Below are positions 1 through 18,553 of a stretch of DNA of 23,192 nt, in pieces. The translations under genes and the position numbers were made by a program. Location: positions 1 through 23,192 of IMG/VR virus record IMGVR_UViG_3300032293_002069. One strand, given 5' to 3'. The number at the start of each line of letters is the position of its first letter. The stretch's first letter is position 1. The notes beneath the pieces were generated by a model. It did no database searches. It was not told where the DNA came from and was given only the letters and a program-made list of their open reading frames with translations. The stretch is from a virus.

Positions 1-183
1 ACCGAATTCTGCCGCCGGATCGAAGCCAGCGACTTTTTAACCGGACGCCGCCGAGAAGCAAACCAAAAGAAATGGACAGCCGATCTCGACTGGTGCATCA
101 TTCCCAGCAACGCCGCCAAAATTAGAGAAGGAAAGTACGACAACCCCAAGACATCCGATGCACCCCGAAAATCTTTCTGGTAA
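1..183 (+). CDS. Phage replication initiation protein, C-terminal end (partial)
   Basis: The reading frame is open from base 1 and ends at TAA 181-183, so only the last 60 residues are present. They contain the pattern SDFLTGR, then W-T-A-D-L-DW, then EGKYDNP. This order is typical of the C-terminal tail of phage replication initiator proteins (RepO/DnaD-like helix-turn-helix proteins), which ends with SDFLtGR...W..dfDWl..p.N..KilEGkYdn. Known family members bind the phage origin and recruit the helicase loader. The next gene being a DnaC-like loader fits this pairing. The N-terminal DNA-binding part lies outside the window, so the exact subfamily cannot be judged. Function is inferred from this tail and the context only. 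Confidence 0.7.
   Translation, partial: TEFCRRIEASDFLTGRRREANQKKWTADLDWCIIPSNAAKIREGKYDNPKTSDAPRKSFW
146..155 (+). promoter_or_regulatory. Degenerate start-associated motif
   Basis: CCAAGACATC matches 8 of 10 positions of the CCGAGACACC motif and lies 2 nt before the ATG at 158. It sits inside the end of the preceding gene. It is the reason the start at 158 is preferred for the helicase loader. Confidence 0.5.
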
Positions 184-970
184 TACCCAAGCTTTCAGAG
201 CCGGAGCCCTCCCCGACGGAAACCGCGAAGTCGGCCACCGAGAGCCGATGGAGCGCCCATGCCATACCCACCGATGCGCCGGGAAAATCTACACCGTCGA
301 AATGCGCGAAGGCCGTCACTTTTTCGTGACACCATTCTGCGACGCCTGCGTCCTAGACATTAAGCGCCGGGAAAGAGAAGCGGAGGAGGAGGACGAAAAA
401 GCCCGATGGCTAAAGGCGACGACAAAGCGCTGGATGGACGCCTGGGGCGGACCCGCGTCCGCATACCACAAGACCAACTTCGACAAGCTACCGCTTCCCC
501 ACCACAGCAACAAAGCGCTGCTGTGGACCCCGGACGAGCAACTCGGCCTGATTTTAGTCGGCCCCAGCGGAAGCGGAAAAAGCCGGACCATGTACCTCCT
601 CCTGGACCGCCTACGCAGGGAGCGCCAGATCATCGCCGACGTTCAACCGTGCATCCAACTGCGCCAGAAGATTGTGAGCGCCGCCAGGAGCCGCCACGAA
701 AGCGACCGCCACGACCTAATCACCCAGCTTGCCACCGCGCCGGTCCTCTACCTCGACGACCTCGGCCAGATGAACAACACCGACGCCGCCGCCGAAGCTT
801 TACTCGAGATCGTCGAACTCCGCCACCGCGCCGAGCTTCCCACCCTTGCAACAACGCAATTTTCAGATGAGGAATTTATAAAGACCTTCAAACAGCGCCA
901 GACCGGCGAGGCCATCGCCCGCCGCCTGGGAGAATCCAGCCACATCATCAAGTTTCCAGCCATCCAATGA
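158..970 (+). CDS. DnaC/IstB-like AAA+ helicase loader
   Basis: Predicted ATPase of 270 aa that loads the replicative helicase at the phage origin. An N-terminal zinc-binding cluster is visible (C35, H38, C40 and C61-x-x-C64), followed by a charged helix and an AAA+ core. Walker A is GPSGSGKS (135-142), Walker B is VLYLDD (196-201), and the sensor-1 stretch is ATTQ (231-234), where DnaC relatives usually have ATTN. The C-terminal ARRLGE...IIKFP segment fits the arginine-finger and end-strand region of DnaC/DnaI loaders. The start at 158 overlaps the upstream gene by 26 bp. It is favoured because a degenerate copy of the start motif precedes it and codon use downstream is coding-like. An in-frame ATG at 248 would give a shorter protein that keeps the zinc cluster. 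Confidence 0.82.
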   Translation: MHPENLSGNTQAFRAGALPDGNREVGHREPMERPCHTHRCAGKIYTVEMREGRHFFVTPFCDACVLDIKRREREAEEEDEKARWLKATTKRWMDAWGGPASAYHKTNFDKLPLPHHSNKALLWTPDEQLGLILVGPSGSGKSRTMYLLLDRLRRERQIIADVQPCIQLRQKIVSAARSRHESDRHDLITQLATAPVLYLDDLGQMNNTDAAAEALLEIVELRHRAELPTLATTQFSDEEFIKTFKQRQTGEAIARRLGESSHIIKFPAIQ

Positions 971-1143
971 AAGACCTCGCCGCCGTCATTATAGCCCTGG
1001 GAGGCCTTGCCAGCTACACCCGCCTCGTCGAAACCAACAACCCAGGAGGAGCCGGAGGAGCCGCGATCATTGCCCTCGCCCTTTCCATGGCTTTGATCGG
1101 ATCAAACAGCAGACCCCCAACCCCTCCCCCACCAACACCATGA
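967..1143 (+). CDS. Small membrane protein, two predicted hydrophobic segments
   Basis: This 58-aa frame starts at an ATGA overlap with the loader and ends at an ATGA overlap with the next gene, so it fills the interval exactly. The translation begins MKDLAAVIIALGGLASY and contains a second hydrophobic stretch (AAIIALALSMALIG) after a Gly-Pro-rich turn, then a proline-rich tail. Two short transmembrane helices are likely. It could be a holin-like or membrane-anchoring protein, but its place among replication genes argues against a standard lysis holin, and no family is recognised. The exact fit of both overlaps and the clean hydrophobic pattern are the main reasons to call it a gene. Confidence 0.6.
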   Translation: MKDLAAVIIALGGLASYTRLVETNNPGGAGGAAIIALALSMALIGSNSRPPTPPPPTP

Positions 1144-1592
1144 CCCCGAAACACAACGTGATCACCGCCTTTGCCCGAGGCCTCATGAAACAGCCGGAGC
1201 TCCTAGCAGTAAGCTGCACGCCCCGCCGATTGACCATGACGACGACAAAAGGCGACTACTCGCGCCTCGTTGGAAAAGGCGGAGCCCACATCCGCGCCAT
1301 GGAGCGCCTGGGAGACGAATACGACATCACCGTCATTCTGGCCGATGCCGTCGAAAACGTCGCGCCGATTGCCGCCACCTTGAAGGAGCCGGAGGACGTC
1401 CTCGCCGACGCCGTCCGCATTCTGCGACCAACGGCAAAGATCGACAGCAAAAAGAACAAGGAGCGAGGCGTCCTCGAGGTCACCGTCGACGCCCGCCCCG
1501 CCTTGAGCGACACGGCCCGCGCCGCCATTGATACGCTAACACACAGCATCGCCCGCACAGCCCTGCTGAGAATGGAGGTCGAATGGCGCTGA
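1140..1592 (+). CDS. KH-domain RNA-binding protein
   Basis: This 150-aa protein carries a clear type II-like KH signature: DYSRLVGKGGAHIRAMERL (about 39-57), with the GxxG loop GKGG at 45-48 and the following Ile51. In KH proteins this loop grips four nucleotides of single-stranded RNA or DNA. The arrangement recalls bacterial KhpA (UPF0109), but here it lies in a longer protein with an extra C-terminal segment (about 75-150) that looks like an alpha/beta extension. The substrate cannot be read from sequence. It starts at an ATGA overlap with the small membrane protein, in the replication operon. KH proteins are not common phage products. A link to the C-rich motif found before many phage starts is inference only. 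Confidence 0.72.
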   Translation: MTPKHNVITAFARGLMKQPELLAVSCTPRRLTMTTTKGDYSRLVGKGGAHIRAMERLGDEYDITVILADAVENVAPIAATLKEPEDVLADAVRILRPTAKIDSKKNKERGVLEVTVDARPALSDTARAAIDTLTHSIARTALLRMEVEWR

Positions 1593-1846
1593 CCCGATAC
1601 GACGCCCCAGGCCGGTACCTCGTTGAGAGCAGCGACCCGAAGCGAGCCGGAGAAGCGTACATGGTTGACCTTTTCGCCTTTGCCGGAGACGGACAATGCG
1701 CCTGCGAAGATTGGACAATCCGCATCCACCCTCACCGCGACGCAGGCACCGAGCCGCCGCGCCGTTTTTGCAAACATATCGCAGAGGCCCGCGAAGCCTT
1801 CACCGACGAGATCATCGCCGGATTTATTGCCCAGGCCATCAGCTAG
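1583..1846 (+). CDS. SWIM zinc-finger protein
   Basis: An 87-aa protein with the SWIM pattern CxC (C39, C41) followed by CxH (C63-K-H65), spaced as in SWIM zinc fingers. These fingers are known to bind DNA or proteins, for example in SWI2/SNF2-associated proteins and RAD51-related complexes. The finger makes up most of the protein, so it is probably an adaptor rather than an enzyme. The start is supported by GGAGGT just upstream, and the gene overlaps the end of the KH gene by 10 bp. Two helicases occur later in the window; a functional tie to either is only a guess. Confidence 0.68.
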   Translation: MALTRYDAPGRYLVESSDPKRAGEAYMVDLFAFAGDGQCACEDWTIRIHPHRDAGTEPPRRFCKHIAEAREAFTDEIIAGFIAQAIS

Positions 1847-1860
1847 AGCCCACCCCGAAC

Positions 1861-1870
1861 CCGAGACACC
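1861..1870 (+). promoter_or_regulatory. Start-associated motif, exact copy 1
   Basis: Exact CCGAGACACC, touching the ATG at 1871 with no gap. No Shine-Dalgarno sequence is visible before this start. Confidence 0.8.
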
Positions 1871-2440
1871 ATGAAAAAACCGAAAAGCCCCGAGATAACA
1901 AAAGCCGAGGAAGCCATCCAAAAACTTGAGCACGACCGAGACAACGACCCGCGCCTCCCGCCGATCATCAGCAAAAGAGACGCAGCCAAAGCAACAGCCC
2001 ACAAACTCGACAACGAGATCAACAAGATCAAAAACGAGTACAGCGATAGAATCTGGAAAGCACGTCGCCAACTTTCAGACGCCCACCAAGCCGCCAGAGA
2101 TACGGTCCCAAAGCCACCCGAGCGCCTGCGCCTAGCGATTGAGAAAACGATAAAAGGCACGACCACAGTCCTCGAGGCCGTCGCCTGGAACGAAGACGGA
2201 ACCCGCGCCATTTTGAAATGGCCCGGACACAAATTCTGGAACGGAATCGGGAACCCACAAGCGTACAGCCCAACCGAGTACTTTCTGGTTGATACAGAAG
2301 GCCTCGAAAAAAACCAAAACCGAGGAATCACAAGCGCAAAGCACGATCCCGAAGCCGTAAAGGCGGACTGCAAAGGCCGACTCAGCCCAGCCACCAAAGC
2401 CGCCTGGATGGCCTGGATCAACGGAGGAAAGGAGCCATGA
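1871..2440 (+). CDS. Hypothetical protein with N-terminal coiled coil
   Basis: A 189-aa protein of unrecognised family. Roughly the first 75 residues are highly charged and lack helix breakers over long stretches (EEAIQKLEHDRDND, then KLDNEINKIKNEY), suggesting a coiled-coil hairpin. The C-terminal half is a small globular region rich in Trp, Gly and Lys, ending WMAWINGGKEP. The start is set by an exact start-associated motif directly against the ATG. The stop overlaps the next start (ATGA), which suggests translation coupled to the RecU-like gene. A role in recombination or replication is suggested by position only. Confidence 0.75.
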   Translation: MKKPKSPEITKAEEAIQKLEHDRDNDPRLPPIISKRDAAKATAHKLDNEINKIKNEYSDRIWKARRQLSDAHQAARDTVPKPPERLRLAIEKTIKGTTTVLEAVAWNEDGTRAILKWPGHKFWNGIGNPQAYSPTEYFLVDTEGLEKNQNRGITSAKHDPEAVKADCKGRLSPATKAAWMAWINGGKEP

Positions 2441-2958
2441 GCAACAACAAGCAAAAAGGCAACTTTTTCGAAGACCTAGTGACGATGGTCGCCAGCAGCT
2501 ACCACGCCCAAGGCATCGCCAAGCTTGAGAAGGTCGACCCGCCGGTCGCCATCAAGTACCGGCCCGGAGGCCGACCATTGATCATCCCGAAGCAAAGCCC
2601 GTTCCTGGACTTTGTCGGAGTTTGGACAGCGCAGGAAGGCCGCGCCCTTTTCATCGAAGCCAAGAGCACCGAGCAACCCCGTCTCGAGTTTGGGAACGAG
2701 ACAGGCATCAAAGCCAGCCAACTGGCCAGCCTCCGCACTTGGCACAACACCGGAGCCGTTGTGGGAGTTTTGTGGCACTACCTGGGAGAAGTCCGCCTCG
2801 TCACGCTTTCCACCATTGCAGCGACCGAGCAAACAGGCCGCAAGAGCATCCGATGGAACGACGCGGAGCCGTTGCCCAGAGGAAAAGGCCTCGTCGAGTT
2901 TGACTTTTTGTCCGTTTTATCGTATTTCTACGGCCTACCCACCGAACCACCCCAATGA
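2437..2958 (+). CDS. RecU-like Holliday junction resolvase (PD-(D/E)XK fold)
   Basis: A 173-aa nuclease candidate resembling RecU, which cleaves four-way DNA junctions formed during recombination. The N-terminus has KGNFFEDLV with E12 and then SYHAQGIAKLEKVDPP, matching the G..FE..i...n..Y...giA...K.p.P pattern of RecU. The catalytic core is FLDFVG (D58), then LFIEAKST with E74 and K76, giving the D...ExK arrangement. Length is close to that of RecU proteins. The start has a strong Shine-Dalgarno region, GGAGGAAAGGAG, just upstream. It lies between two unknown genes in the replication block and could resolve recombination or replication intermediates before packaging. Confidence 0.8.
   Translation: MSNNKQKGNFFEDLVTMVASSYHAQGIAKLEKVDPPVAIKYRPGGRPLIIPKQSPFLDFVGVWTAQEGRALFIEAKSTEQPRLEFGNETGIKASQLASLRTWHNTGAVVGVLWHYLGEVRLVTLSTIAATEQTGRKSIRWNDAEPLPRGKGLVEFDFLSVLSYFYGLPTEPPQ
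2942..2951 (+). promoter_or_regulatory. Degenerate start-associated motif
   Basis: CCGAACCACC matches 8 of 10 positions of the motif and ends 3 nt before the ATG at 2955. It lies within the last codons of the resolvase gene, so coding constraint could also explain the similarity. Confidence 0.4.
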
Positions 2959-3248
2959 GAACCCGAAACAACCCGAACGACAACCCCGTCACCCACGCCC
3001 TCCTTTCCCGAGCCCTTGACCCAATTGTGGCATGGTGCCAAGAGGAGCGAGGCCGGAAAAGCCAACTCCTCCTGGCGATGCAAGCCGCAGCCGAGCCGGA
3101 GACAATACACCGGTCCATTCTTGAAAGCTGGCTCAAAGAGAAGCCAGAGGACCGAAACCAGCCCAGCCTTGCAGCGGGAATGCTACTTTTACAGGTCGCC
3201 GAGACCCTCGGAATCTTAACCATTGCCGAGGTCTTCAAACGCCAGTAA
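2955..3248 (+). CDS. Small, mostly helical protein (possible HTH regulator)
   Basis: A 97-aa protein beginning at an ATGA overlap with the resolvase. The middle (about 30-85) reads as consecutive helices: KSQLLLAMQAAAE, HRSILESWLKEKPED and PSLAAGMLLLQVAETLGI. The order of helix, turn, SxxESWLKE and a helix rich in Ala and Leu resembles small phage helix-turn-helix proteins, but no diagnostic HTH is convincing. It may be a small DNA-binding regulator. Nothing in the flanks shows an operator for it. The following 32 bp before the ParB-like gene are A-rich and hold no clear ribosome binding site. Confidence 0.65.
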   Translation: MRTRNNPNDNPVTHALLSRALDPIVAWCQEERGRKSQLLLAMQAAAEPETIHRSILESWLKEKPEDRNQPSLAAGMLLLQVAETLGILTIAEVFKRQ

Positions 3249-3280
3249 AAACCCGATTCAAACCCAATAATAACAAGCCA

Positions 3281-4333
3281 ATGACACCCATCACACCCCA
3301 CAAGCTCTCCCTGTTGTTTCCCGACATGGAGGCAGCGCAGTACGAATCCTTCAAAGCCACGATCAAAGAGGGAGGCCTCCGGGAAGACATCATCCTCCTC
3401 GACGGCCAGATCCTAGACGGTCGCCACCGCTACCGCGCCTGCCTTGACGTGGGCATCAAGCCGACTTTCGAGAACTACAACCCCGCCGTCCATGGCATCA
3501 GCCCCGCTCAATTCGTCATTGACCGGAACCTCGAGCGCCGCCACTTGAGCGCCAGCCAGAAAGCCGCCATCGCCCTCGAGGCCTTGCCCCACTTCGAACG
3601 CGAAGCCCTCGAGCGAAAGCAACAAAGCCAATTCAAAGTCGTCCCCAAGGAGGAGCCCGGAACACCGGAGACCGGCGAGGCCGCGACCGACGAGCCGCCG
3701 CAGTACACCAAAGACGACGGCAACGCCAAAACCACCGTACGCGAACACACCCGCCGCAACCAGCCCACCGGCCCCGTCCCCGCGCCCCTCGAAGGCCAGA
3801 GCACCAAAGGCAAAGCCGTCGACCTCGTCGCGGAGCGATTCGGAACCAGCCCGACCATGGTCAAGCTTGCCAAGCGGATCAAAAAGGACAACCCCGACCT
3901 CTACCAAGACGTCCTCGCCGGTCGCGTTACCGTGACAGCCGCCGCCGCCACCATTGACGCCGCCAAGAGCAACGAAGAGAAGAAGGCCAAGAAAGAAAAG
4001 GAGCGCCAAGCCCGCAACGCCAGCCTGATCATTTTGGAGGAGAAGTACGGCCCGACTTCCCAGGTCGTCACCGCCGCCCGGAAGGGAACCATCCTCAAGG
4101 ACAACGAGCACCTCGGCACTTTTTCCGAGCTTCCACCGGAGCAAGGCAAGCTCCTGCTGCCTTTGCTCGCCAAAGGCTGGACGCTACCCAAGGCCCAGCA
4201 ATACATGGACGGAAAGCTCACGACCGAGAGCACCATCGACGACCTCATCAACAGCGCCATCGCCAGCAAGGCCGACGAAGGCGTCCCGTTTGTCCGCGTC
4301 TTTGGCGCATTCACCGTGACCGTGACCAAGTAA
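3281..4333 (+). CDS. ParB/KorB-like nucleotide-binding and HTH protein
   Basis: A 350-aa protein with an N-terminal ParB/sulfiredoxin-fold domain. The hallmark box is QILDGRHRYRACLDVG (about 43-58), and the second box is IDRNLERRHLSASQKAAIAL (80-99). After a charged, Pro- and Glu-rich linker (about 110-175), a helix-turn-helix reads VAERFGTSPTMVKLAKRI (183-200), as in KorB/ParB central domains. The C-terminal region is helical and unrecognised. ParB proteins bind CTP and DNA sites and act in segregation or gene regulation. No ParA gene is seen in this window, so partition is not implied. The perfect hairpin right after its stop codon could be its own target or an RNA structure. The start lacks a Shine-Dalgarno. 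Confidence 0.8.
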   Translation: MTPITPHKLSLLFPDMEAAQYESFKATIKEGGLREDIILLDGQILDGRHRYRACLDVGIKPTFENYNPAVHGISPAQFVIDRNLERRHLSASQKAAIALEALPHFEREALERKQQSQFKVVPKEEPGTPETGEAATDEPPQYTKDDGNAKTTVREHTRRNQPTGPVPAPLEGQSTKGKAVDLVAERFGTSPTMVKLAKRIKKDNPDLYQDVLAGRVTVTAAAATIDAAKSNEEKKAKKEKERQARNASLIILEEKYGPTSQVVTAARKGTILKDNEHLGTFSELPPEQGKLLLPLLAKGWTLPKAQQYMDGKLTTESTIDDLINSAIASKADEGVPFVRVFGAFTVTVTK

Positions 4334-4343
4334 CCCCAGCGCC

Positions 4344-4366
4344 CCGGCGGAGCGACCCTCCGCCGG
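4344..4366 (+). terminator. Perfect 9-bp GC hairpin after the ParB-like gene
   Basis: Arms CCGGCGGAG (4344-4352) and CTCCGCCGG (4358-4366) are perfect inverted repeats around a 5-nt loop, 11 nt past the ParB-like stop codon. No U-tract follows, so a classical intrinsic terminator is unlikely. RNA processing, transcript stabilisation, a pause site, or a protein operator are alternatives. It is called a terminator only as the nearest category. Confidence 0.5.
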
Positions 4367-4377
4367 AGCCTACCACC

Positions 4378-4387
4378 CCGAGACACC
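4378..4387 (+). promoter_or_regulatory. Start-associated motif, exact copy 2
   Basis: Exact CCGAGACACC, 6 nt before the ATG at 4394. The block CCGAGACACCCAACCCATG is identical to that at 18544-18562. Confidence 0.8.
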
Positions 4388-4393
4388 CAACCC

Positions 4394-4591: not shown

Positions 4592-4601
4592 CCCCACGCC
4601 A

Positions 4602-4611
4602 CCGAGACACC
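4602..4611 (+). promoter_or_regulatory. Start-associated motif, exact copy 3
   Basis: Exact CCGAGACACC, 2 nt before the ATG at 4614. Confidence 0.8.
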
Positions 4612-4613
4612 CA

Positions 4614-5006: not shown

Positions 5007-6571
5007 AGTGGAACCCCGAGTACCGCCTCCGTGACTACCAGCGAGAATGGTGCCGCAAAGTTTCCGACGGATTCAACAACGGCCCCGAGAACGTCCCCAT
5101 CAAGAGAGGCCTCGGCACCGCCGGAACCGGAGCCGGAAAGACCATCATGGCCAGCGCCTTGATTTACGCCGAGCAGAAAACCCCCAGACCAAAGCCCTGC
5201 CTCTTCCTGGCCGACCGGGACGAGCTCGTCGGCCAAGCCGCCGACAAGATTTATAAGACAACGGGAACTTTTGCCGACATCGAGAAAGGGACCAGCCGAG
5301 CCAGCCCCCAGGCCGACGTCGTAGTCGGGAGCATTCAGACCATCAGCCGCAGCGACCGCTTGCACCGATTCGACCCGGACCAATTCGGCCTCGTCATTTG
5401 TGACGAAGCCCACCTGAGCCTCGCCGACAACTGGCAGCGGACCCTGCGCCACTTTGAACCGGCCCGAATTCTAGGCATCACGGCAACGCCAAGCCGCCAC
5501 GACAAAAAGAAGCTCCTGGACTTTTACGAAGCCGAGCTGGCCTCCATCGGCCTTTTCGACTTGATCAACCTGGGAGCCCTTGCACCGATCACCGTCCAGA
5601 CGATAGGCATCGAGATCGACGCCACCCGCGCCAGCTTGAGCGACAGCGAGGACAACGACGAACTCGCCGAAGCCGTCGAGCCTTACTGGGACGCCATAAT
5701 CGACGCCTGGGAGGCCAACGCCCGCGACCGGCCCACCTTGATCTTTCACCCCAGCCGGAAGGCCAGCCGCGCCTTCACCGAGCGCCTCCAGGCCCGAGGC
5801 ATCCGCGCCGCCCACATTGACGGGAGCAGCAAGAACCGCGCAGAGATCCTGCAAAGCTTCACAGACGGGAAAATCGACGTTTTGAACAACGCCGTCCTCT
5901 TGACGACAGGATACGACGAGCCCCGGATCGGCTGCATCATTAACCTGCGCCCCACCCAGAGCAAGACGATGTACCAGCAGATCGTCGGACGCGGAACCCG
6001 CCTTTTCCCAGGCAAGGACAACCTCCTCCTTTTGGACTTCCTCTGGCAATTTGCCGAGCTAGGGATCATGAGGCCCGCCGACTTGATCGCCGACAGCGAG
6101 GAGCAGCGCAACGCCGTCCAGCGCCGCCTGGAAGCCGGAGAGCAGCAACTCAACCTCCAGGAGATCGACGAGGCCGTGATGGGAGAGCGAGAGCAGGCCA
6201 TGGTCCGCGCCTTGAAGGCCGCGAAGAAGCACGGAGGGAAAGTCTACGACGCCCGGAGCATCGCCGCCGTCTGCCACATTCCCGCCCTGGTGGACTACGA
6301 ACCCCTCGCCCGATGGGAGAGCAAGCCAGCCAGCGAGAAGCAAGTGGCGTGGCTAGCAAAACACGGGATCGACCCGGACACGGTCAGAGGCCGAGGCCAC
6401 GCCAGCGCGATCATGGACGCGATGATGGAGAGGTACAAGACCGGAGCCGCCACCATACGCCAGACCGTAACCCTGGCCCAGATGAAGATCGAGGAGCCCT
6501 GGAAATTGAGCATCCAGCAAGCAAGCGAAATCATAGACGCCAAATTTCAGCAGTACAAGGAAAGACGGTGA
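5003..6571 (+). CDS. DEAH-box superfamily II helicase
   Basis: A 522-aa nucleic-acid-dependent ATPase of the ResIII/SSL2-like group. Motifs in order: Q-like LRDYQREW (9-16), Walker A GTGAGKT (41-47), motif Ia LADRDEL (69-75), Walker B DEAH (134-137), motif III TATP (160-163), motif IV LIFHPSRK (246-253), motif V TTGYDEP (301-307), motif VI QQIVGRGTR (325-333). The last 180 residues form a helical extension. Such phage helicases resemble T4 UvsW or the motor part of type I/III restriction enzymes and are thought to remodel recombination or origin structures. The start has a good site, GAGGAGG, and overlaps the upstream gene. No nuclease domain is fused to it, arguing against a restriction subunit. 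Confidence 0.88.
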   Translation: MKWNPEYRLRDYQREWCRKVSDGFNNGPENVPIKRGLGTAGTGAGKTIMASALIYAEQKTPRPKPCLFLADRDELVGQAADKIYKTTGTFADIEKGTSRASPQADVVVGSIQTISRSDRLHRFDPDQFGLVICDEAHLSLADNWQRTLRHFEPARILGITATPSRHDKKKLLDFYEAELASIGLFDLINLGALAPITVQTIGIEIDATRASLSDSEDNDELAEAVEPYWDAIIDAWEANARDRPTLIFHPSRKASRAFTERLQARGIRAAHIDGSSKNRAEILQSFTDGKIDVLNNAVLLTTGYDEPRIGCIINLRPTQSKTMYQQIVGRGTRLFPGKDNLLLLDFLWQFAELGIMRPADLIADSEEQRNAVQRRLEAGEQQLNLQEIDEAVMGEREQAMVRALKAAKKHGGKVYDARSIAAVCHIPALVDYEPLARWESKPASEKQVAWLAKHGIDPDTVRGRGHASAIMDAMMERYKTGAATIRQTVTLAQMKIEEPWKLSIQQASEIIDAKFQQYKERR

Positions 6572-6657
6572 GGACATAAAAACCCCCACCGGAGGAGGCC
6601 CGTAGAATAAGGGATTCAGCGCGAAGAAAAAAAGTGAAAAAAACTTCATTCTCGCCG

Positions 6658-6686
6658 TTGACAATACACGATAAATAGGGCATAAT
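6658..6686 (+). promoter_or_regulatory. Sigma70-like promoter with A-tract upstream element
   Basis: TTGACA (6658-6663), 17-bp spacer, CATAAT (6681-6686). The spacer contains ATAAATAGG, also found in the promoter candidate at 18506. The phased A-tracts at 6627-6643 sit where an UP element would lie. It would transcribe the small winged-helix gene and those after it. The -10 box overlaps the ATG at 6685, so that ATG would not be on the transcript. Confidence 0.68.
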
Positions 6687-6715
6687 GGCAGCACGTTCAA
6701 AGAGCGAACGCAACC

Positions 6716-6725
6716 CCGAGACACC
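6716..6725 (+). promoter_or_regulatory. Start-associated motif, exact copy 4
   Basis: Exact CCGAGACACC, 8 nt before the ATG at 6734 and about 30 nt downstream of the promoter -10 box. Confidence 0.8.
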
Positions 6726-6733
6726 CAAAACCG

Positions 6734-6910
6734 ATGTTCTACCGCAACCTGATCCTCAACAAATTGAACCGCAGCGCCAACAAAAGCGCATGGTTTCACA
6801 CCGACTGCGACGCGATGATGAAAGCCGCCGACGATTTAGAAAAAGAAGGCTTGATCAAGCAAGCAGGATCAGGACGCGGAGAAGTCCGGTACGTCCTTGT
6901 CACAAAATAA
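6734..6910 (+). CDS. Small winged-helix-like protein
   Basis: A 58-aa frame starting MFYRNLILNKLNRSANKSAW. Its second half, MMKAADDLEKEGLIKQAG followed by SGRGEVRYVLV, matches the last helix, Gly-rich wing and final strand of a winged HTH domain (LekeGLI..g.grg.ryvL). It is preceded by an exact start-associated motif and by the strong promoter at 6658. A longer open frame in another phase (6685-6936) overlaps it but has unusual, Arg/Gln-rich composition and its ATG lies within the -10 box. The protein may regulate the promoter from which it is transcribed; that is inference. Confidence 0.68.
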   Translation: MFYRNLILNKLNRSANKSAWFHTDCDAMMKAADDLEKEGLIKQAGSGRGEVRYVLVTK

Positions 6911-6919
6911 CCACCCAAC

Positions 6920-6929
6920 CCGAGACACC
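6920..6929 (+). promoter_or_regulatory. Start-associated motif, exact copy 5
   Basis: Exact CCGAGACACC, 7 nt before the ATG at 6937. Confidence 0.8.
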
Positions 6930-6936
6930 CAAAAAC

Positions 6937-7287: not shown

Positions 7288-7304
7288 GCCCCGCAACCCC
7301 AACC

Positions 7305-7314
7305 CCGAGACACC
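7305..7314 (+). promoter_or_regulatory. Start-associated motif, exact copy 6
   Basis: Exact CCGAGACACC within the extended form AACCCCGAGACACCCGAA, 9 nt before the ATG at 7324. This is the widest spacing seen. Confidence 0.8.
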
Positions 7315-7323
7315 CGAACCACC

Positions 7324-7777: not shown

Positions 7778-7789
7778 CCGAGACCCACC
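7778..7789 (+). promoter_or_regulatory. Variant start-associated motif
   Basis: CCGAGACCCACC is the motif with two extra C, in the usual context after AACC, 2 nt before the ATG at 7792. Confidence 0.6.
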
Positions 7790-7791
7790 CG

Positions 7792-8079
7792 ATGAAACCC
7801 AAGATCAGCACCGCCACCGCCCGCGACATGACCGCCCTGGCCCTTCAACACCTGACCCCAGGAGAGGAGGCCGAGCGATTCATCAAAGCCTGGAGCAGCG
7901 CCCTGCCGCAGCTTTTCGACATCAGCGAGCACGACCTCGACAAGGCCACCGGCCAAGCCTGGGCCGAATTCCAGCAATGGCACCGGGACACGATCACCGC
8001 CAAGGTGGGAGCCGTTGCCGTTTCCATTCTTGAATTCTTGCAAGCCGCCACCCCAAACCAAAAAACCACCCGAGCATGA
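7792..8079 (+). CDS. Hypothetical protein
   Basis: A 95-aa protein, mostly helical by composition (ARDMTALALQHLTPGEEAE, then WAEFQQWHRDTITAKVGAVA). Aromatic residues are clustered in the middle. No motif is recognised. The stop overlaps the next start (ATGA). The start follows the variant motif with 2 nt spacing. Confidence 0.65.
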   Translation: MKPKISTATARDMTALALQHLTPGEEAERFIKAWSSALPQLFDISEHDLDKATGQAWAEFQQWHRDTITAKVGAVAVSILEFLQAATPNQKTTRA

Positions 8080-8774: not shown

Positions 8775-10511
8775 ATGACCACCCACGGCACCGTCACGTA
8801 CCGCCACCCGACCGCCAAGCAAGCCGCCGCCGCTTGGAGGATTGACACCACCCCCAACCTCCGCGCCACCCTCCGCCGCCTATTCCCCGCCACCAACTAC
8901 CAGAAGACGCCCCACATCGAGCTCCCGACCACCCCGGACAAAAGCCGAGACTTGGAATGGTTTTTGCAGCGATACCCCCACCGGATCGACCCCCACCACC
9001 ACCGCCTCCTGACTTCCATGGCCGACGTCAGCCGGGAGACCGAGCGAGACGCCGCCGAGATCCTCTCCGACGGATACGAGCCCCAGCCGGTCAACCTAGC
9101 AACGCCCCTCCGGAGCTACCAAGCCGTCGCCGTTGACCTTTGCCGGAAGGTTAAAGGCCTCCTGTTGGGAGACGACCTCGGCCTCGGAAAGACCGCCGTC
9201 GGGATTGCCCTGACAACCTACCAGGACGCCCGCCCCGCCGTCGTCATTTGCCAGACCCACCTCCCGAGACAATGGGCCGCGCAATTTAAGAAATTTGCCC
9301 CCCAGCTTTCCGTCGAGATCGCCCAAACGATGAAACCCCACGCCTGGAGGAGCGACGTCCTGATCTTGCCCTATTCGAAAGCCGCCGGATGGCGTGACGC
9401 CCTAGACCACATCAAAACCCTCGTTCTTGACGAGGCCCAGGAATGCCGCAAGAGCACCAGCGCCAAGTACGCCGCCGTTTCCAGCATTGCCAGGAACGCC
9501 ACGTACCGCCTGGGATTGACGGCAACACCCGTGTACAACTACGGTGGCGAGACCTTCAACGTCTGCGAGCCCCTCCGACCGGGAGAACTTGGCACCGCCC
9601 ACGAATTCATCCGGGAATGGTGCGCGGAGGGAGGCCACACCGACACGGCCCGCGTACTTGAGCCCCAAGCCCTCGGAGCCTACCTCCGCGAGAAAACGAT
9701 CATGCTACGGCGGACCCGCGCCGACGTCGGACGCGAAGTCCCACCGGCCCAGATCATCGCCCAGGTCGTCCCCTTCAAACACGCCGTGATTGACGCCTTT
9801 TTGAGAAAGGACGCCCATCAACTAGCCCGGACCATTCTGACCGGAAGCTTCACCGAGCGAGGACAGGCAAGCCGGGAATTTGACAACCGCCTGCGACAGG
9901 CGACAGGCATCGCCAAAGCGCCGTACGTGGCCGAGCTTGTAATCGACCTCGCGCAGGCCGGGAAGAAAGTCGTCCTTGGAGGATGGCACCGCCAAGTGTA
10001 CGAGATTTGGCGCGAAGCCTTCAAAGAGAAAGGCGTCCCCCACTGGCTGTACACCGGGACCGAGAGCGCCACAGCCAAAGCCGCCGCCGTTGAAGCATTC
10101 ACCAAAGCACCGGAAGGAGCCGTCCTCATTCTTTCACTTCGAAGCGGAGCAGGCCTCGACGGCCTCCAATACCACAGCGACACCATCGTCAGCGGAGAGC
10201 TCGACTGGAGCCCCAAGGTCCATGAACAATTCAACGGACGCGTGGTCCGCGACGGCCAGGAGAACGAAAGTACGATCATTTACCCGATAGCCGAGACCGG
10301 GAGCGACCCCGTCATGGCAAAAATTCTCGGGGTGAAGATTGAGCAAGGCCTCGGAATTACAGACCCGACCGTCGACCCGGGACAAGCCTCGAACCAATTC
10401 GGCGACAGCAACAACGAAGAGATCGTCAAAAACCGGAGCGCCGCACTTGCGCGAGACTTCCTGAGCCGCTACGATAAAGCCCACCCAAGCCCCGAACCCG
10501 AAGAAGACTGA
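8775..10511 (+). CDS. SNF2-family DNA helicase/translocase
   Basis: A 578-aa SNF2-type superfamily II ATPase. Motifs: LRSYQAVAVD (112-121), Walker A DLGLGKT (134-140), motif Ia QTHLPRQW (160-167), DEAQ (219-222) replacing the usual DEAH, motif III TATP (249-252), motif V SLRSGAGLDGLQ (454-465), and motif VI QFNGRVVRDGQ (485-495). About 100 N-terminal residues precede the motor. Phage members of this family are thought to remodel DNA in replication or recombination. It follows the PD-(D/E)XK nuclease without a gap. Its TGA stop is built into a start-associated motif for the next gene. Confidence 0.88.
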   Translation: MTTHGTVTYRHPTAKQAAAAWRIDTTPNLRATLRRLFPATNYQKTPHIELPTTPDKSRDLEWFLQRYPHRIDPHHHRLLTSMADVSRETERDAAEILSDGYEPQPVNLATPLRSYQAVAVDLCRKVKGLLLGDDLGLGKTAVGIALTTYQDARPAVVICQTHLPRQWAAQFKKFAPQLSVEIAQTMKPHAWRSDVLILPYSKAAGWRDALDHIKTLVLDEAQECRKSTSAKYAAVSSIARNATYRLGLTATPVYNYGGETFNVCEPLRPGELGTAHEFIREWCAEGGHTDTARVLEPQALGAYLREKTIMLRRTRADVGREVPPAQIIAQVVPFKHAVIDAFLRKDAHQLARTILTGSFTERGQASREFDNRLRQATGIAKAPYVAELVIDLAQAGKKVVLGGWHRQVYEIWREAFKEKGVPHWLYTGTESATAKAAAVEAFTKAPEGAVLILSLRSGAGLDGLQYHSDTIVSGELDWSPKVHEQFNGRVVRDGQENESTIIYPIAETGSDPVMAKILGVKIEQGLGITDPTVDPGQASNQFGDSNNEEIVKNRSAALARDFLSRYDKAHPSPEPEED

Positions 10512-10517
10512 GACACC
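10508..10517 (+). promoter_or_regulatory. Start-associated motif with one mismatch, overlapping a stop codon
   Basis: CTGAGACACC (9 of 10) contains the helicase TGA stop at 10509-10511 and ends 4 nt before the ATG at 10522. Confidence 0.7.
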
Positions 10518-10854: not shown

Positions 10855-10864
10855 CCGAGACACC
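10855..10864 (+). promoter_or_regulatory. Start-associated motif, exact copy 7
   Basis: Exact CCGAGACACC, 2 nt before the ATG at 10867. Confidence 0.8.
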
Positions 10865-13109: not shown

Positions 13110-13134
13110 ACCCCCCCAACACCCAAACACACCC

Positions 13135-13944: not shown

Positions 13945-13958
13945 AAGCCACCCCAGCC

Positions 13959-13967
13959 CCAGACACC
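13959..13967 (+). promoter_or_regulatory. Variant start-associated motif (one base deleted)
   Basis: CCAGACACC is the motif without its first G, directly against the ATG at 13968. It decides this start over in-frame ATGs upstream. Confidence 0.55.
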
Positions 13968-14465
13968 ATGAGCCCCACCACCTTCCCAGAGCAGGACACC
14001 ACGTACGCCAAGGACCAGCCCGAGTACCAACCCCTCCCCGCCTACCGCTACCACGACCACGAAGGTACCATCCTTTGCTGTTGGCAGCTTTCGATCAGGG
14101 AGCGCCTCAAGCTACTTTTCACCGGGAGACTATGGCAACACGTTCTCACCTTCAACCTTCCCCTTCACCCGCAACGATTGAGCGTCGACAAACCCGAGAT
14201 CCCCACACCGGCCCCAGAAGCCGCCGACTTTGTCCAATGGGCCGACGACCACCCCAAGATCGAGAACGCCCTCGCCTTCCTCTACGGTCCCGAGCACAGC
14301 CGCGAACTGACCAAGCGAGCCTTTTACAGCGCCGCCAAATTCAGGTGCCCAACCTACGTCGGAGAATGGATCGAGTACAACGGCCTCGCGTGCATTGCAG
14401 GCCCAGACCTCCTCGCCGCTTTCATTAAAGCCCACGAAGCATCCAAAAAACGCGCCACGACATGA
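13968..14465 (+). CDS. Conserved phage protein of unknown function
   Basis: A 165-aa protein. The N-terminal half includes LSIRERLKLLFTGRLWQ, then LTFNLPLHPQRLSVDKPE. I recognise this arrangement (W.lsf.eRl.lLFtGklW...lTFn.PltPq.lsv) from many small phage and prophage proteins with no assigned function. The C-terminal half (about 80-160) is extra and helical, with RCPTYVGEWIEYNG. The start at 13968 is chosen over upstream ATGs because of the variant motif. The stop overlaps the next gene (ATGA), placing it in the packaging operon. Confidence 0.72.
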   Translation: MSPTTFPEQDTTYAKDQPEYQPLPAYRYHDHEGTILCCWQLSIRERLKLLFTGRLWQHVLTFNLPLHPQRLSVDKPEIPTPAPEAADFVQWADDHPKIENALAFLYGPEHSRELTKRAFYSAAKFRCPTYVGEWIEYNGLACIAGPDLLAAFIKAHEASKKRATT

Positions 14466-15334
14466 GAAACGAGATCGACGACCGCCTGGAACTTGAATTC
14501 GAAGCCGACGCGGAGTGGAAGGCCTACCAGACCCGCGTCGCCCGGATTCTAACGAAGCGCAACGGAGGCAAACCCCTCAACAAAGAGGAGACCGCCATCC
14601 TGGCCGACTATAAGGTCGCCACCGGCCTGAAGGAGCCGCCCCGAAACCACCAAGGCGAGATCATCCCGCCCATCCTCTACGGATACAACGAAGCCGCCGA
14701 GGCCTTCAACGTGGCCAGGGAGCAACTGTACACGCTTCGAAAGAACAACAGCCCCGCCTTCACCCACAACATCATCCTCGCCGCCACCTTGAGCGAGGAA
14801 CTAAAGGCCAACCCAAACCCCGAGTACGCGCCCCTTAACGCCATCCACACCGGAGCCAAAGGCAAGCTGACGCCGGAGCTAATGGAGAGCATCGTCGCCC
14901 AACTCAGCACCTGCCCCGTCCTTTCCACCGTAGCCGGAGCCCACGGAATAACTGGTGCAACGCTATCGATCTGGAGGAGCAAAGGCGAGGCCGGAGAAAA
15001 GAGGTACGTTGAATTCTTTAAACGCACAGAGGCCGCGCTGGAAGAAAGCCGCCTCGGCCTAATTCGAGACATTGCAACGGACCCCGACTGGAGAGCCAAG
15101 CTGACCATCCTGGAGCGGACCCAGCCGGAGAAATTCGGACGCGTCCACCGCCTCGAGCACACCGGGAAAGACGGAAAAGACCTCCCGGCCCCGACCACGG
15201 CCACACCGATGGTCACGGTCATTCTTGGCACCGGCCAGACCGGCCCGAACCCCTACGACCCCGACGCGCCGCCGCCGGAGGAGATCCCGGAGGAGCCCGA
15301 CGACGACGAGGATGGAGAGGAGGCCGGAGAATGA
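14462..15334 (+). CDS. Probable terminase small subunit
   Basis: A 290-aa protein with two possible helix-turn-helix segments: GYNEAAEAFNVAREQLYTLR (74-93), and CPVLSTVAGAHGITGATLSI followed by WRSKG (151-175). After the second come FFKRTEAALEESRLGLI and a TILERTQPEKFGRV segment (about 214-227), a layout seen in small terminase and related phage HTH proteins, where the latter ends the HTH-oligomerisation core. A long acidic tail (PEEIPEEPDDDEDGEEAGE) closes the protein. Small terminase recognises packaging sites and hands DNA to the large subunit, whose gene lies about 1.8 kb downstream. The start is an ATGA overlap. It is longer than most small terminases, so the assignment is moderate. Confidence 0.62.
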   Translation: MRNEIDDRLELEFEADAEWKAYQTRVARILTKRNGGKPLNKEETAILADYKVATGLKEPPRNHQGEIIPPILYGYNEAAEAFNVAREQLYTLRKNNSPAFTHNIILAATLSEELKANPNPEYAPLNAIHTGAKGKLTPELMESIVAQLSTCPVLSTVAGAHGITGATLSIWRSKGEAGEKRYVEFFKRTEAALEESRLGLIRDIATDPDWRAKLTILERTQPEKFGRVHRLEHTGKDGKDLPAPTTATPMVTVILGTGQTGPNPYDPDAPPPEEIPEEPDDDEDGEEAGE

Positions 15335-15564
15335 GCCAAAAAGCGACCGCCCGCCGAAAGCCGACTAAAGGCGACCTCATCGCCCTCGTAAACCTTGCCG
15401 CCCACGAAGCAGGCAGCGCCCTGAACGTCTACCACGACGACCGCCAGCCAGACCGCGCTGGAGAGATGCAGCGCCGACTGGGAGAGCTTCAACGATTGAT
15501 GCTGGAAGCCGCCAGCCACTACCCACCGCCCCGAGCAAGCCCATGGACGCCCCCGACGACCTAG
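15331..15564 (+). CDS. Small hypothetical helical protein
   Basis: A 77-aa basic protein with a Lys/Arg-rich N-terminus (MSQKATARRKPTKGD), a helical middle (LIALVNLAAHEAG, then MQRRLGELQRLMLEAASHY) and a proline-rich end. A good GAGGAGG site precedes the ATG, and the gene overlaps both neighbours. No family is recognised. Confidence 0.65.
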   Translation: MSQKATARRKPTKGDLIALVNLAAHEAGSALNVYHDDRQPDRAGEMQRRLGELQRLMLEAASHYPPPRASPWTPPTT

Positions 15565-16223
15565 CCGCCCTCCTGGCCGGATTGACCGGCGAGGCCATCG
15601 CCGGACAAGGCCGCGTCAACGACCTACTCCACAAGACCCCCGCCCTAACGACCGGCCTCAACACCGGAGACCTTGCCCTGCACACCAAGAGCAACCACGT
15701 GACCCTCAACCACGCAGGGATCGCCGCCGCCGCAAAGCAGATTCAGCACCTCCCCGAAGACGGATGGGCCGTGCATTGCATCATGGGCGGAGACTTCCAC
15801 GGATTCGACGTCATCCCCACCATTCAGCACCTCGCCGGATGCGCCATCGATACTCTGACCATCGCCACGCTTTCCTTTTCAAAACGCAACCTTTCAAACC
15901 TTGCCCTCATGCTTGACCAGGGAACCGTCCGCACCGTCGGCCTGTTGACCTCGGACTATTTCGCCAAGGCCGACGCCTTGATCTACGGAGCAGCCAAGCG
16001 AGAGCTCATCGAGAAACGCACCGGCCACCGCCTCGCCTTCACTCGGACCCACGCCAAGGTGATCTGCATCAAGACCGACGATGGCCGCTATTTTGTAGTC
16101 GAGAGCAGCGCCAACCTGCGAAGCTGCGTCAACTTCGAGCAATTCGCACTTTTTCAAAGCCGGGAGCTTTTCGATTGGCATTCTGACTGGATCGACTACC
16201 TTCTCACCACAGGAGGAAAATAA
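15543..16223 (+). CDS. PLD-superfamily-like protein
   Basis: A 226-aa protein resembling phospholipase-D-type proteins. The HKD-like block is FTRTHAKVICIK (H170, K172), followed by FVVESSANLRS (SSAN, 188-191), which matches the GSxN part of the HxK...GSxxN motif with Ser-Ser-Ala-Asn. An earlier block, IATLSFSKRN (107-116), fits the strand and loop seen at the start of each half-site. Only one HxK is visible, so it would need a dimer to make a full active site, as in Nuc-like nucleases. The Asp following HxK is not clear. A nuclease role in packaging is possible but unproven. It overlaps the upstream gene by 22 bp. Confidence 0.65.
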   Translation: MDAPDDLAALLAGLTGEAIAGQGRVNDLLHKTPALTTGLNTGDLALHTKSNHVTLNHAGIAAAAKQIQHLPEDGWAVHCIMGGDFHGFDVIPTIQHLAGCAIDTLTIATLSFSKRNLSNLALMLDQGTVRTVGLLTSDYFAKADALIYGAAKRELIEKRTGHRLAFTRTHAKVICIKTDDGRYFVVESSANLRSCVNFEQFALFQSRELFDWHSDWIDYLLTTGGK

Positions 16224-16227
16224 AGCC

Positions 16228-16353
16228 ATGGCCAAAAAAGCAGCAAAGAAAGCAGCCACCAAACGAGCACGTCCACGCCCACCCCGGCCCCGCCCCGGCG
16301 GAGGAGCCCGCAGCGGAGGAGGAGCAGGCGACGACGGCGGAGATCCATTCTAG
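16228..16353 (+). CDS. 41-aa basic protein with SSB-like acidic C-terminal tip
   Basis: A short frame from ATG 16228 to TAG 16353, with AGGAGG at 16211-16216 ahead of it. The N-terminus is strongly basic (MAKKAAKKAATKRARPRP), a Gly-rich linker follows, and it ends GDDGGDPF. The end resembles the acidic tip of bacterial SSB proteins, which ends in Asp-x-Pro-Phe and docks many repair and replication enzymes. A peptide with a DNA-binding tail and an SSB-type tip but no OB-fold would be unusual. It could alternatively be a packaging or histone-like peptide. The good ribosome site supports translation. Confidence 0.55.
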   Translation: MAKKAAKKAATKRARPRPPRPRPGGGARSGGGAGDDGGDPF

Positions 16354-16420
16354 GCCACCACCGGCCACCCCGAGACCCGAAAGCACCGACGGCAACGCAC
16401 CGCCGCCCCACCGAGCCCAC

Positions 16421-16606
16421 ATGACACCACCCCAAACGCCCCCAGGATACAACACCACGCATCGCCGCCGAGCCGAGGCCGGTCGCTGCGTAGGATGCGG
16501 AAGCGGAAAGCTTCACACGCTCCGTTTTTGCTTTCCCTGTGCCAGCGCCAAAGCCGAGGAGGCCCGCCTCGCCTACAAAGCCCGAACCCGGACCAAAGCA
16601 GCATGA
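16421..16606 (+). CDS. Small zinc-ribbon protein
   Basis: A 61-aa protein with two CxxC pairs, CVGC (about 23-26) and CFPC (about 37-40), about 10 residues apart, plus basic flanks (RRRAEAGR and YKARTRTKAA). It is a probable single zinc ribbon binding nucleic acid or protein. A degenerate start motif, CCGAGCCCAC (16411-16420), touches the ATG. The stop overlaps the next start (ATGA). The 67 bp before it hold the motif-like CCGAGACCC and no other gene. Confidence 0.65.
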   Translation: MTPPQTPPGYNTTHRRRAEAGRCVGCGSGKLHTLRFCFPCASAKAEEARLAYKARTRTKAA

Positions 16607-17118
16607 AGCACCGCCGCCCCTTTCAGACTTGGAAAGACCTCGAGACCGACGAGCCCGTCCCAGGCCCGGAAAAAAGCCTCCGCCTTTTTGCATTCAGGAA
16701 CCCCAGAATGAACTTCATCGAAGTTTACCTCTGGTCCCACGCCTACCAAATGCGAGCCGCCCGCCAGCGAGCAAGCCAGAGAGAGCGAGCCAAAACCCAA
16801 GGCTTTTTTCACGAATTCCATGAGCAAAAGATCGACCGCAACCGCCGAGGCCACGCCATCGGAAGCAAGAAGATCGGAGAAATTCACCTGTGCCGCAAAT
16901 TCCTGACCGTTGACACCATTTCCCACGAAGTCCACCACGCCACCCTGGCCTGGGGCCACAGGTTGAAACGGCCCCTGCCACAGACGACCGAGGAATCCTG
17001 GACCGAGCCCAAGCACAACGTCCGATGGAGCCCCGAGGAATTGAGCGCGACCCTCCAAGGCCAATGGACCGACGACCTCGTACAAGCCTTTTGTGAGCAC
17101 GTAGCCGCCCGGAAATGA
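16603..17118 (+). CDS. HExxH putative metallopeptidase-like protein
   Basis: A 171-aa protein with the segment IGEIHLCRKFLTVDTISHEV (about 91-110), and HEVHH at 108-112 giving HExxH. Two His and one Glu of this motif bind and activate zinc in zincin peptidases. The later EELSATLQG and AFCEHVAARK region (E165) could provide the third ligand. This strand-helix arrangement, with a hydrophobic strand before HExxH, resembles the ImmA/IrrE or SprT-like folds, but no regulator partner is nearby. Its place directly before the large terminase, with an ATGA overlap, is odd for a regulator, so it may act on a packaging or head protein. The start at 16603 is chosen over in-frame upstream ATGs because it makes the ATGA overlap. 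Confidence 0.68.
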   Translation: MKHRRPFQTWKDLETDEPVPGPEKSLRLFAFRNPRMNFIEVYLWSHAYQMRAARQRASQRERAKTQGFFHEFHEQKIDRNRRGHAIGSKKIGEIHLCRKFLTVDTISHEVHHATLAWGHRLKRPLPQTTEESWTEPKHNVRWSPEELSATLQGQWTDDLVQAFCEHVAARK

Positions 17119-18509
17119 TCACGCTAGAGCTTCAACCGAAGCAGGCCGAAGCCTTCACCAGCCGAGCCACCGAACTGCTGTACGGCGGAGCCGCCGGAGG
17201 AGGAAAGAGCCACCTCGTCCGGGTCGCCTTGATTGCATGGTGCCAGATGATCCCCGGCCTGCAATGCGCCCTTTTCCGCCGGACTTTTGCCGACCTTCAC
17301 AAAAACCACATGGAAGGCCCAACAAGCTTTCCCCAGCTTCTAGCGCCCCTGGTCAACGCAGGCCACGCCCGCATCGTGCAAGGGGAAATCATATTTAGCA
17401 ACGGGAGCCGGATAAGCCTGTGCCATTGCCAGCACGAAAAAGACAAGCTCAAGTACCAGGGGGCCGAGTTTCACGTCCTAGCCATCGACGAGCTAACCCA
17501 CTTCACCGAAACCATTTACAGGTACCTCCGGGGCCGCGTCCGCATGACCGGCCTGGACATACCCAAGCACCTCAAGCACCTTTTCCCCAGGATCATCACC
17601 AGCGCCAACCCCGGTGGCCCCGGGCATTCATTCGTGAAGCGGACCTGGGTGAAGAAAGGCGAACGACCGCACCGAGCGAGCAAAAAGGAAGGTGGATTTA
17701 TTCGACAATTCATCAGCGCCAAGCTTTCCGACAACTACGCCCTGCTCAGAGACGACCCCGAGTACGCCACCCGCCTCGAAGGCCTCGGCGACGCCGCCCT
17801 GGTCCGCGCACTAAGGGACGGAGACTGGGACGTCGTAGCCGGTGCGATGTGGGGCGAGGTTTGGAGAAACGCCCGCCACACTTGCGAAGCCTTCCCCATA
17901 CCGCACGACTGGCCAATCTGGGTCGGAGCCGACGACGGGTACAACGACGCCGCTGCAATGGTATGGTTTACAGAGAACCCCAGGACCAAGACCGTGTACG
18001 CTATTGCCGAGCTTTACCAGACCGGCCTCCTCCCGGAGCAATTCGTCACCCTTGCCACCAAGATCAACAGATCGATTTTGAGGACCGACGAGCGAGGCGA
18101 CATCAGCGCCAACACCGAGCCCATCCGAGGCTTTATGGACAGCGCCGCCTTTGCCGACCACGGCCAGACCGGCCCCAACGGAGAGAAGGCCGTGCCCCGA
18201 GGGAACCAACTGGTCGCCCTGGGCCTCAAGCTAAAACCAGTCCCCAAGTGGCAAGGGAGCCGCGTCCATGGCGTCCAGGAGATCCACCGCCTCCTTGCAC
18301 CCAACAGCAAAGACCCGGAGAAGCGCCCCGGCCTCATTTTCTTCAAACGCTGCAAGCAGGCCATCGAGACGATCCCGACAATAGGCCGAGACGACAAGCA
18401 GCCGGAGGACACCGACCCAGACAACCCGGACGACCACATCGTCGACGCCGTCCGCTATGGCATCCAGTTCAAACGAGGAAAACCCGGAACATTGAAAATC
18501 AACGCTTGA
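17115..18509 (+). CDS. terL: Terminase large subunit
   Basis: A 464-aa DNA-packaging motor with nuclease. The ATPase has Walker A GGAAGGGKS (24-32), Walker B VLAIDE (120-125) and a coupling-motif-like SANPGG (162-167). The RNase H-fold nuclease has acidic residues in GADDGYND (D272/D273), FMDSAAF (D341) and DDHIVDAVRYG (D443). It pumps phage DNA into the procapsid and cuts it at start and end. It begins at an ATGA overlap. Its stop codon overlaps a promoter -35 box (18506-18511). In most phages the portal gene follows directly; here about 2.4 kb of other genes intervene. Confidence 0.92.
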   Translation: MITLELQPKQAEAFTSRATELLYGGAAGGGKSHLVRVALIAWCQMIPGLQCALFRRTFADLHKNHMEGPTSFPQLLAPLVNAGHARIVQGEIIFSNGSRISLCHCQHEKDKLKYQGAEFHVLAIDELTHFTETIYRYLRGRVRMTGLDIPKHLKHLFPRIITSANPGGPGHSFVKRTWVKKGERPHRASKKEGGFIRQFISAKLSDNYALLRDDPEYATRLEGLGDAALVRALRDGDWDVVAGAMWGEVWRNARHTCEAFPIPHDWPIWVGADDGYNDAAAMVWFTENPRTKTVYAIAELYQTGLLPEQFVTLATKINRSILRTDERGDISANTEPIRGFMDSAAFADHGQTGPNGEKAVPRGNQLVALGLKLKPVPKWQGSRVHGVQEIHRLLAPNSKDPEKRPGLIFFKRCKQAIETIPTIGRDDKQPEDTDPDNPDDHIVDAVRYGIQFKRGKPGTLKINA

Positions 18510-18533
18510 CCTTTGCGGGATAAATAGGACAAT
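18506..18533 (+). promoter_or_regulatory. Putative promoter after the terminase gene
   Basis: TTGACC (18506-18511), 16-bp spacer, then GACAAT (18528-18533). It contains ATAAATAGG (18520-18528), the same string found in the spacer of the promoter at 6658. It overlaps the terminase stop and would drive the 18560 gene and its followers. The -10 box is weaker than that of the first promoter. Confidence 0.5.
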
Positions 18534-18543
18534 GCGCCCACAC

Positions 18544-18553
18544 CCGAGACACC
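18544..18553 (+). promoter_or_regulatory. Start-associated motif, exact copy 8
   Basis: Exact CCGAGACACC, 6 nt before the ATG at 18560, in the context CCGAGACACCCAACCCATG seen also at 4378. It is the last exact copy in the window. Confidence 0.8.

Follow-up and report, generated by a model that had tools for sequence, protein, structure and literature searches.

How does a phage that has no Shine-Dalgarno (SD) site at many of its gene starts tell the ribosome where to begin? The question is raised by a 23,192-bp stretch of viral DNA (IMG/VR record IMGVR_UViG_3300032293_002069, with no assigned taxonomy), analyzed here in full and referred to as the window, in which the 10-mer CCGAGACACC recurs immediately upstream of start codons. 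The initial annotation held that this motif takes the place of the SD site in many leaders and resembles the start-associated sequences (SAS) of some mycobacteriophages in position, though not in sequence, and our analysis supports this view. Judging from sequence, we favor, with a probability of roughly 0.6, the reading that CCGAGACACC is a cis-acting translation-initiation element that would operate at the RNA level, on the leading genes of translationally coupled blocks, and would be read in trans.

The motif and the starts that it precedes

The gene layout of the window, set by hand from a list of open reading frames, consists of 38 genes and one incomplete first gene, all on the + strand, and leaves 787 non-coding bases (3.4% of the 23,192). 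All eight exact copies of CCGAGACACC fall within these 787 bases, on the + strand with none on the −, and end 0, 6, 2, 8, 7, 9, 2 and 6 nt, in order, before an ATG, in full agreement with the positions originally reported. The extended form of the motif is AACCC[C/A]GAGACACCCAA, and the motif heads about a third of the window genes. The copies are as follows.

1861..1870, + strand, exact copy, 0 nt before ATG 1871
4378..4387, + strand, exact copy, 6 nt before ATG 4394, with a strong hairpin upstream (~4338-4371)
4602..4611, + strand, exact copy, 2 nt before ATG 4614
6716..6725, + strand, exact copy, 8 nt before ATG 6734, within the leader of a sigma-70-like promoter
6920..6929, + strand, exact copy, 7 nt before ATG 6937
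7305..7314, + strand, exact copy, 9 nt before ATG 7324
7779..7790, + strand, probable variant CCGAGACCCACC before ATG 7792, with the core CCGAGAC intact
10508..10517, + strand, copy with one mismatch, CTGAGACACC, 4 nt before ATG 10522
10855..10864, + strand, exact copy, 2 nt before ATG 10867
13958..13967, + strand, copy with one mismatch, CCCAGACACC, 0 nt before ATG 13968
18544..18553, + strand, exact copy, 6 nt before ATG 18560, within the leader of a second promoter-like site

When the starts are divided into those that follow a gap of at least 10 nt (gap starts, n = 17) and those that overlap or abut the previous gene (coupled starts, n = 21), the motif, with at most one mismatch, is found at 10 of the 17 gap starts vs none of the 21 coupled starts (Fisher p = 4e-5), with the probable variant at 7792 in addition. 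For SD matches of at least 4 nt, the respective counts are 0 of 17 and 5 of 21. The GGAGG sites noted initially, at 1583, 2437, 5003, 15331 and 16228, are all present, and each belongs to a gene that overlaps the upstream gene or lies no more than 4 nt from it. In the window, motif and SD sites are mutually exclusive. The presence of the motif at gap starts, together with its absence from coupled starts, implies that it marks the first genes of coupled blocks, at which ribosomes load afresh.

Chance and C-rich composition are ruled out by both leader and whole-window shuffles. In 2,000 dinucleotide shuffles of the 17 gap leaders (44% C), exact copies average 0.047 and reach 2 at most, compared with the 8 observed, so that the check with shuffled leaders suggested at the outset comes out in favor of the motif, the exact copies of which are confined to non-coding bases. 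Allowing one mismatch brings the totals to 10 matches in leaders and 4 in coding sequence, vs 4.75 expected from the whole-window shuffles, and allowing two brings them to 13 and 46, respectively; the motif is, therefore, visible only at zero or one mismatch, and weaker copies mean little. This divides the six degenerate copies that had been proposed: those before 10522 and 13968 are supported and that before 7792 is likely, whereas those before 158 and 2955 are located within the upstream gene and show 2 mismatches, a level at which the coding sequence of the window has 46 matches, and that before 16421 has 3, with a better match ~40 nt away, so that all three are indistinguishable from chance. 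The sole mismatch of CTGAGACACC at 10508, C to T, forms the TGA stop of the upstream gene, which indicates that the motif was kept around this required stop. In a scan of both strands of 87 contigs of at least 8 kb for 10-mers that recur immediately before ATGs, the window ties for the top count, the tied contig (L050) harboring a simple trinucleotide repeat. The large direct repeats in the window mostly fall in genes and have no connection with the motif, the exception being the leader pair 4593/10846.

The motif is both highly conserved and anchored to the start. Alignment of 14 leader sites gives 16.2 bits in the 10-nt core, where the first C and AGACACC are invariant in all 14, position 2 is C, A or T, and position 3 is G in 13; the flanks are weakly conserved, showing just an A/C bias, which speaks against simple recent duplication of the copies. 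All 13 tested leader copies, from the window and a second contig, L083 (see below), are within 9 nt of the start, in gaps of up to 174 nt (p = 2e-6 for random placement), and when the two gaps longer than 100 nt are removed, the summed-distance test, with copies placed randomly in gaps, gives p = 0.003. The motif is also predicted to be more often unpaired than random sites (0.69 vs 0.50), and in the predicted folds of the leaders of 4394 and 6734, it is left free downstream of hairpins.

The hairpin at 4338-4371, located between a ParB-like gene and the 4378 copy, is very stable and lacks a U-run (−22.6 kcal/mol for the 63-nt leader, z −5). Such a hairpin directly before a copy, and the position of the motif between genes, could be expected of an RNA processing or mRNA-stability site, where cleavage or protection at the motif would shape intercistronic 5' ends. 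Just one copy, however, is known to have such a hairpin, both promoter-proximal copies are near natural 5' ends, and neither Rfam families nor tRNAs were matched in the window, so we consider a processing site highly improbable.

Ribosomal pairing and candidate readers

The initial annotation took the variable gap between motif and ATG as an argument against ordinary pairing with the anti-SD sequence. By itself, this argument is weak because the GAG inside the motif is located 5-14 nt from the ATG, a usable SD range, and a minimal SD would tolerate such spacing; the non-SD reading is better supported by the weak pairing and the invariant AGACACC. With the anti-SD tail of E. coli, which may not be that of the host, the predicted duplex energy is about −3.0 kcal/mol for the motif leaders and +0.1 for 13968, where the copy, CCCAGACACC, has lost the GAG, compared with −9.5 to −12.0 kcal/mol for the five SD leaders. 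The anti-SD cannot read the invariant AGACACC, nor can GAG explain the invariant ACACC. One could still imagine that GAG pairs with the CUC of the anti-SD in an unstructured C/A-rich leader, the remainder being a habitual leader sequence spread by cassette copying. The spacing of GAG would fit, the other leaders of the phage are likewise G-poor and A/C-rich, the GGAGG sites suggest that host ribosomes probably use the anti-SD, and a cassette was indeed copied or exchanged (see below). Nevertheless, given such feeble pairing, the loss of GAG at 13968, and the constancy of AGACACC in 14 of 14 sites while flanks and spacers vary, a minimal SD appears quite unlikely to be the explanation. Pairing of the motif with ribosomal RNA was considered as well and rejected, the longest perfect complement of AACCCCGAGACACCCAA in the 16S and 23S rRNA of E. 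coli, which may differ from those of the host, being 6 nt.

Under the favored reading, the translation-initiation element, placed in an unstructured A/C-rich leader 0-9 nt from the AUG, would mark the genes where ribosomes load afresh, and genes inside the blocks would use overlapping stop-start codons, some with classical SD sites. The conserved bases beyond GAG would be read by a trans-acting factor, conceivably a phage protein, such as the KH-like product of 1140-1592, or a host ribosomal component, and this factor would raise or time initiation at a group of genes that are mostly small and non-structural. Two genes of the window encode putative readers.

1140..1592, + strand, 150-aa protein with a KH type II-like domain and a GKGG loop, candidate motif reader (sub-threshold matches)
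6734..6910, + strand, 58-aa winged-helix-like protein (weak assignment), alternative candidate reader at the DNA level, first gene after the main promoter

The ligands of KH domains are short single strands, in many cases rich in C and A, and it is the KH-like features of the first protein that make it a candidate. Its match to the Pfam family KH_KhpA-B scores 19.6 bits (E 8.4e-4), under the curated cut-off of 32.1, and there is a faint match to the NusA KH domain (E 1.5). In a single-sequence structural model of low confidence (pLDDT 46.6), the order of elements matches the alpha-beta-beta-alpha-alpha-beta arrangement of KH type II, and the proteins that Foldseek ranks highest for this low-confidence model belong mainly to uS3 and KhpB (E 3.6e-3 or higher). 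The more specific proposal, that mRNA leaders are read by this KH-domain protein, which would recognize CCGAGACACC and recruit or license ribosomes of the host at those starts, amounting to a private translation-start code, is in our estimate rather unlikely; if true, the phage could turn on a set of genes jointly through translation. In the 87-aa product of the adjoining gene (1583-1846), a SWIM-like pattern for zinc binding, CxC...CxH, was read by eye; this product had no NCBIfam match.

Promoters, a shared cassette and a related contig

The 16-mer ACCCCGAGACACCCAA led to a single genuine relative among the IMG/VR contigs, L083 (IMGVR_UViG_3300032293_001860), described here as its reverse complement (rc). 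The promoter-like sites of the window and the cassette shared with L083 are as follows.

6658..6686, + strand, sigma-70-like promoter TTGACA-17-CATAAT (11/12), upstream of the motif at 6716 and conserved in L083
18506..18533, + strand, second promoter-like site TTGACC-16-GACAAT (9/12, weak), with GATAAATAGG in common with the first promoter
6563..6730, + strand, 169-bp promoter-leader-motif cassette, 91% identical to L083rc 656-823

Promoter-like sites precede just 2 of the 10 motif copies in the window, most copies lie between genes of one operon, and neither promoter box contains the motif. Because two copies are in short promoter 5' leaders and most others between operon genes, the element seems to travel with starts rather than with promoters and, hence, is best read as acting in translation. 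Of the functions listed in the initial annotation, translation is, thus, favored over transcription and recombination, by the anchoring to starts and the lack of promoters at most copies, whereas a role akin to that of stoperators keeps its standing as a rival.

Stoperators, as described in cluster A mycobacteriophages, are asymmetric, oriented, repressor-bound 13-bp DNA sites of the GGTGG[A/C]TGTCAAG type in short intergenic spaces (PMC9283540). By analogy, a phage repressor would bind the asymmetric 10-mer between genes and block transcription elongation. The window motif shares the asymmetry, the single orientation relative to transcription, the short intergenic location and the many copies of these sites, and the small winged-helix-like protein (itself a weak assignment) is encoded first after the main promoter. 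Yet, the placement of the motif copies follows the start codon and is more than just intergenic, whereas the stoperators of cluster A are not described as tied to it; no integrase or repressor was recognized in this fragment; the motif is in neither promoter box; and matches to the known consensus are at the chance level, with 3 two-mismatch matches in the window, all on the − strand, vs 1.3 expected. We regard this main rival as unlikely.

The scan of relatives proposed at the outset turned up four more leader copies in L083: two of CCGAGACACC and two of CAGAGACACC, each 7-8 nt before the ATG of consecutive genes; the scaffold-like, capsid and tail-region genes of this contig lack the motif. 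The cassette, which consists of the sigma-70-like promoter, a short hairpin that leaves the motif free, and the motif, precedes different genes in the two contigs, and these 169 bp are the sole notable DNA that they have in common. The window and L083 are alike in GC content and extreme strand skew but have no proteins in common; they may derive from separate regions of related genomes, or perhaps of a single kind of phage. The coding-strand skew (A>T 0.30 and C>G 0.17 in the window, 0.29 and 0.14 in L083) is unlike that of the other loci compared. A near-identical version of the L083 capsid region, with 8 mismatches over 8,987 bases, is present in a different metagenome (L124).

The end of the shared block a few bases from the motif, with different flanking genes, might suggest a recombination boundary or a module-exchange sequence between genes. 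However, the motif is missing from all coupled gene boundaries, and such a role would leave the start-anchoring and the 0-9 nt placement unexplained; moreover, since the block contains the conserved promoter, conservation of regulation accounts for it. The probability of the recombination scenario is, in our judgment, very small.

Several observations weigh against a translational role. Six of the 17 gap starts lack the motif, which is therefore not obligatory; GAG could serve as a minimal SD; part of the start-anchoring is forced because the gaps are short; the KH assignment of the candidate reader is built on sub-threshold matches; a DNA-level role is also compatible with the sequence; and one exact copy in L083 (rc 3096) is inside a gene. 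In addition, an ATG at 6685, in the −10 box, begins a reading frame that runs across the 6716 copy (MAARSK.ERNPETPK; window 6685-6733, L083rc 778-825). This frame is open in both contigs and, in L083, is in frame with the downstream gene, so that the 6716 copy could be coding if translation begins at this ATG, although such a start is probably not transcribed from this promoter.

Among the products of the window genes are a DnaC-like loader, a RecU-like protein, ParB-like proteins, two helicases and a ParB-methyltransferase, as well as both terminase subunits (small and large), the portal and a Mu F-like protein. The identity of the large terminase (TerL) does not exceed 45% with IMG/VR contigs and is ~41% with named phages; the portal, used as a query, recovered one relative (36% identity), and the KH-like protein and the SNF2 helicase had no match when used as queries for relatives. 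By these comparisons, the phage is without a close relative, its other proteins matching no better than TerL. Two long leaders that lack the motif, those preceding 16421 and the portal gene (20947), have CGACGGCAACGC in common (~16388-16400 and ~20918-20930).

Start-associated repeats in other phages

The closest parallel is the SAS of cluster K mycobacteriophages, a short asymmetric repeat that occurs in one orientation 3-9 bp before the ATG of ~11-19 mostly non-structural genes (PMC3203893; PMC11373665; PMC12699233). A subset of SAS is preceded by an extended SAS (ESAS) block (PMC3203893) that contains a SigA-like promoter (PMC11373665). The window motif shares the asymmetry, the single orientation and the location a few nucleotides before the ATG of mostly non-structural genes; promoter-like sites lie upstream of 2 of its 10 copies in the window and in L083. 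It differs from the 13-bp SAS, GGGATAGGAGCCC, with its AGGAG SD core, in being C/A-rich with no SD beyond GAG and in that it can touch the ATG, and the window phage is unrelated to cluster K. A search of the window for GGGATAGGAGCCC with at most two mismatches gave one two-mismatch match, inside a gene and at the chance level, and no 17-bp inverted repeat of the ESAS type was seen, though no systematic search for it was made. With the sequence definition failed and the AGGAG core missing, the window motif is not an SAS but appears to be an element of the same kind. The A/C-rich, weakly structured leaders without SD are reminiscent of non-SD initiation through unstructured leaders, which needs no specific sequence (e.g. 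PMC3121790); unlike that general mode, the window keeps a near-invariant 10-mer.

The 16-mer search recovered 3 IMG/VR contigs, of which L081 and L082 carry one exact copy each; no IMG/VR contig besides L083 has two start-linked copies, 33 contigs have a start-linked 12-mer, and the TerL relatives (at most 45% identity) lack the exact motif. Origin of the motif from a host was rejected because the 16-mer followed by ATG gives 6 single-hit stretches in 84,980 genomes and no multi-copy locus; two of these six stretches are on contigs of one Rhizobium genome.

Other phages, though, seem to possess start-linked repeats of their own. Five contigs found via TerL (L024, L032, L033, L035 and L037, on the − strand of the loci) contain a different start-associated repeat, ACAGAAAG, of which 34 of 35 copies are 4-12 nt (mostly 6-7) before an ATG, on one strand, often ~12-14 nt after a TATAAT-like (−10-like) box. 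The 14-mer AAATAGGGCATAAT, which makes up the promoter −10 region in the window (~6673-6686), also precedes one ACAGAAAG leader in L037 (− strand, ~18135-18150). In three further contigs (L062, L069 and L070, − strand of the loci), a ~50-nt leader cassette ending in ACCAACT[T/A]ATAACTACTAAGAACTATTATG precedes 3-5 genes each. Lineage-specific start-associated repeats may, therefore, be more common than the one described case, and perhaps widespread.

SAS was described in 2011 in one mycobacteriophage cluster, and its function is still called unclear (PMC11373665; PMC12699233). An unrelated phage with an SAS-like layout but without the SD core sets the function of start-associated repeats apart from ordinary anti-SD pairing and makes for a cleaner test case, all the more so as a candidate RNA-binding reader is encoded in the same genome as the motif. 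The second repeat, ACAGAAAG, in TerL-related phages suggests that the phenomenon may be widespread while taking a lineage-specific form.

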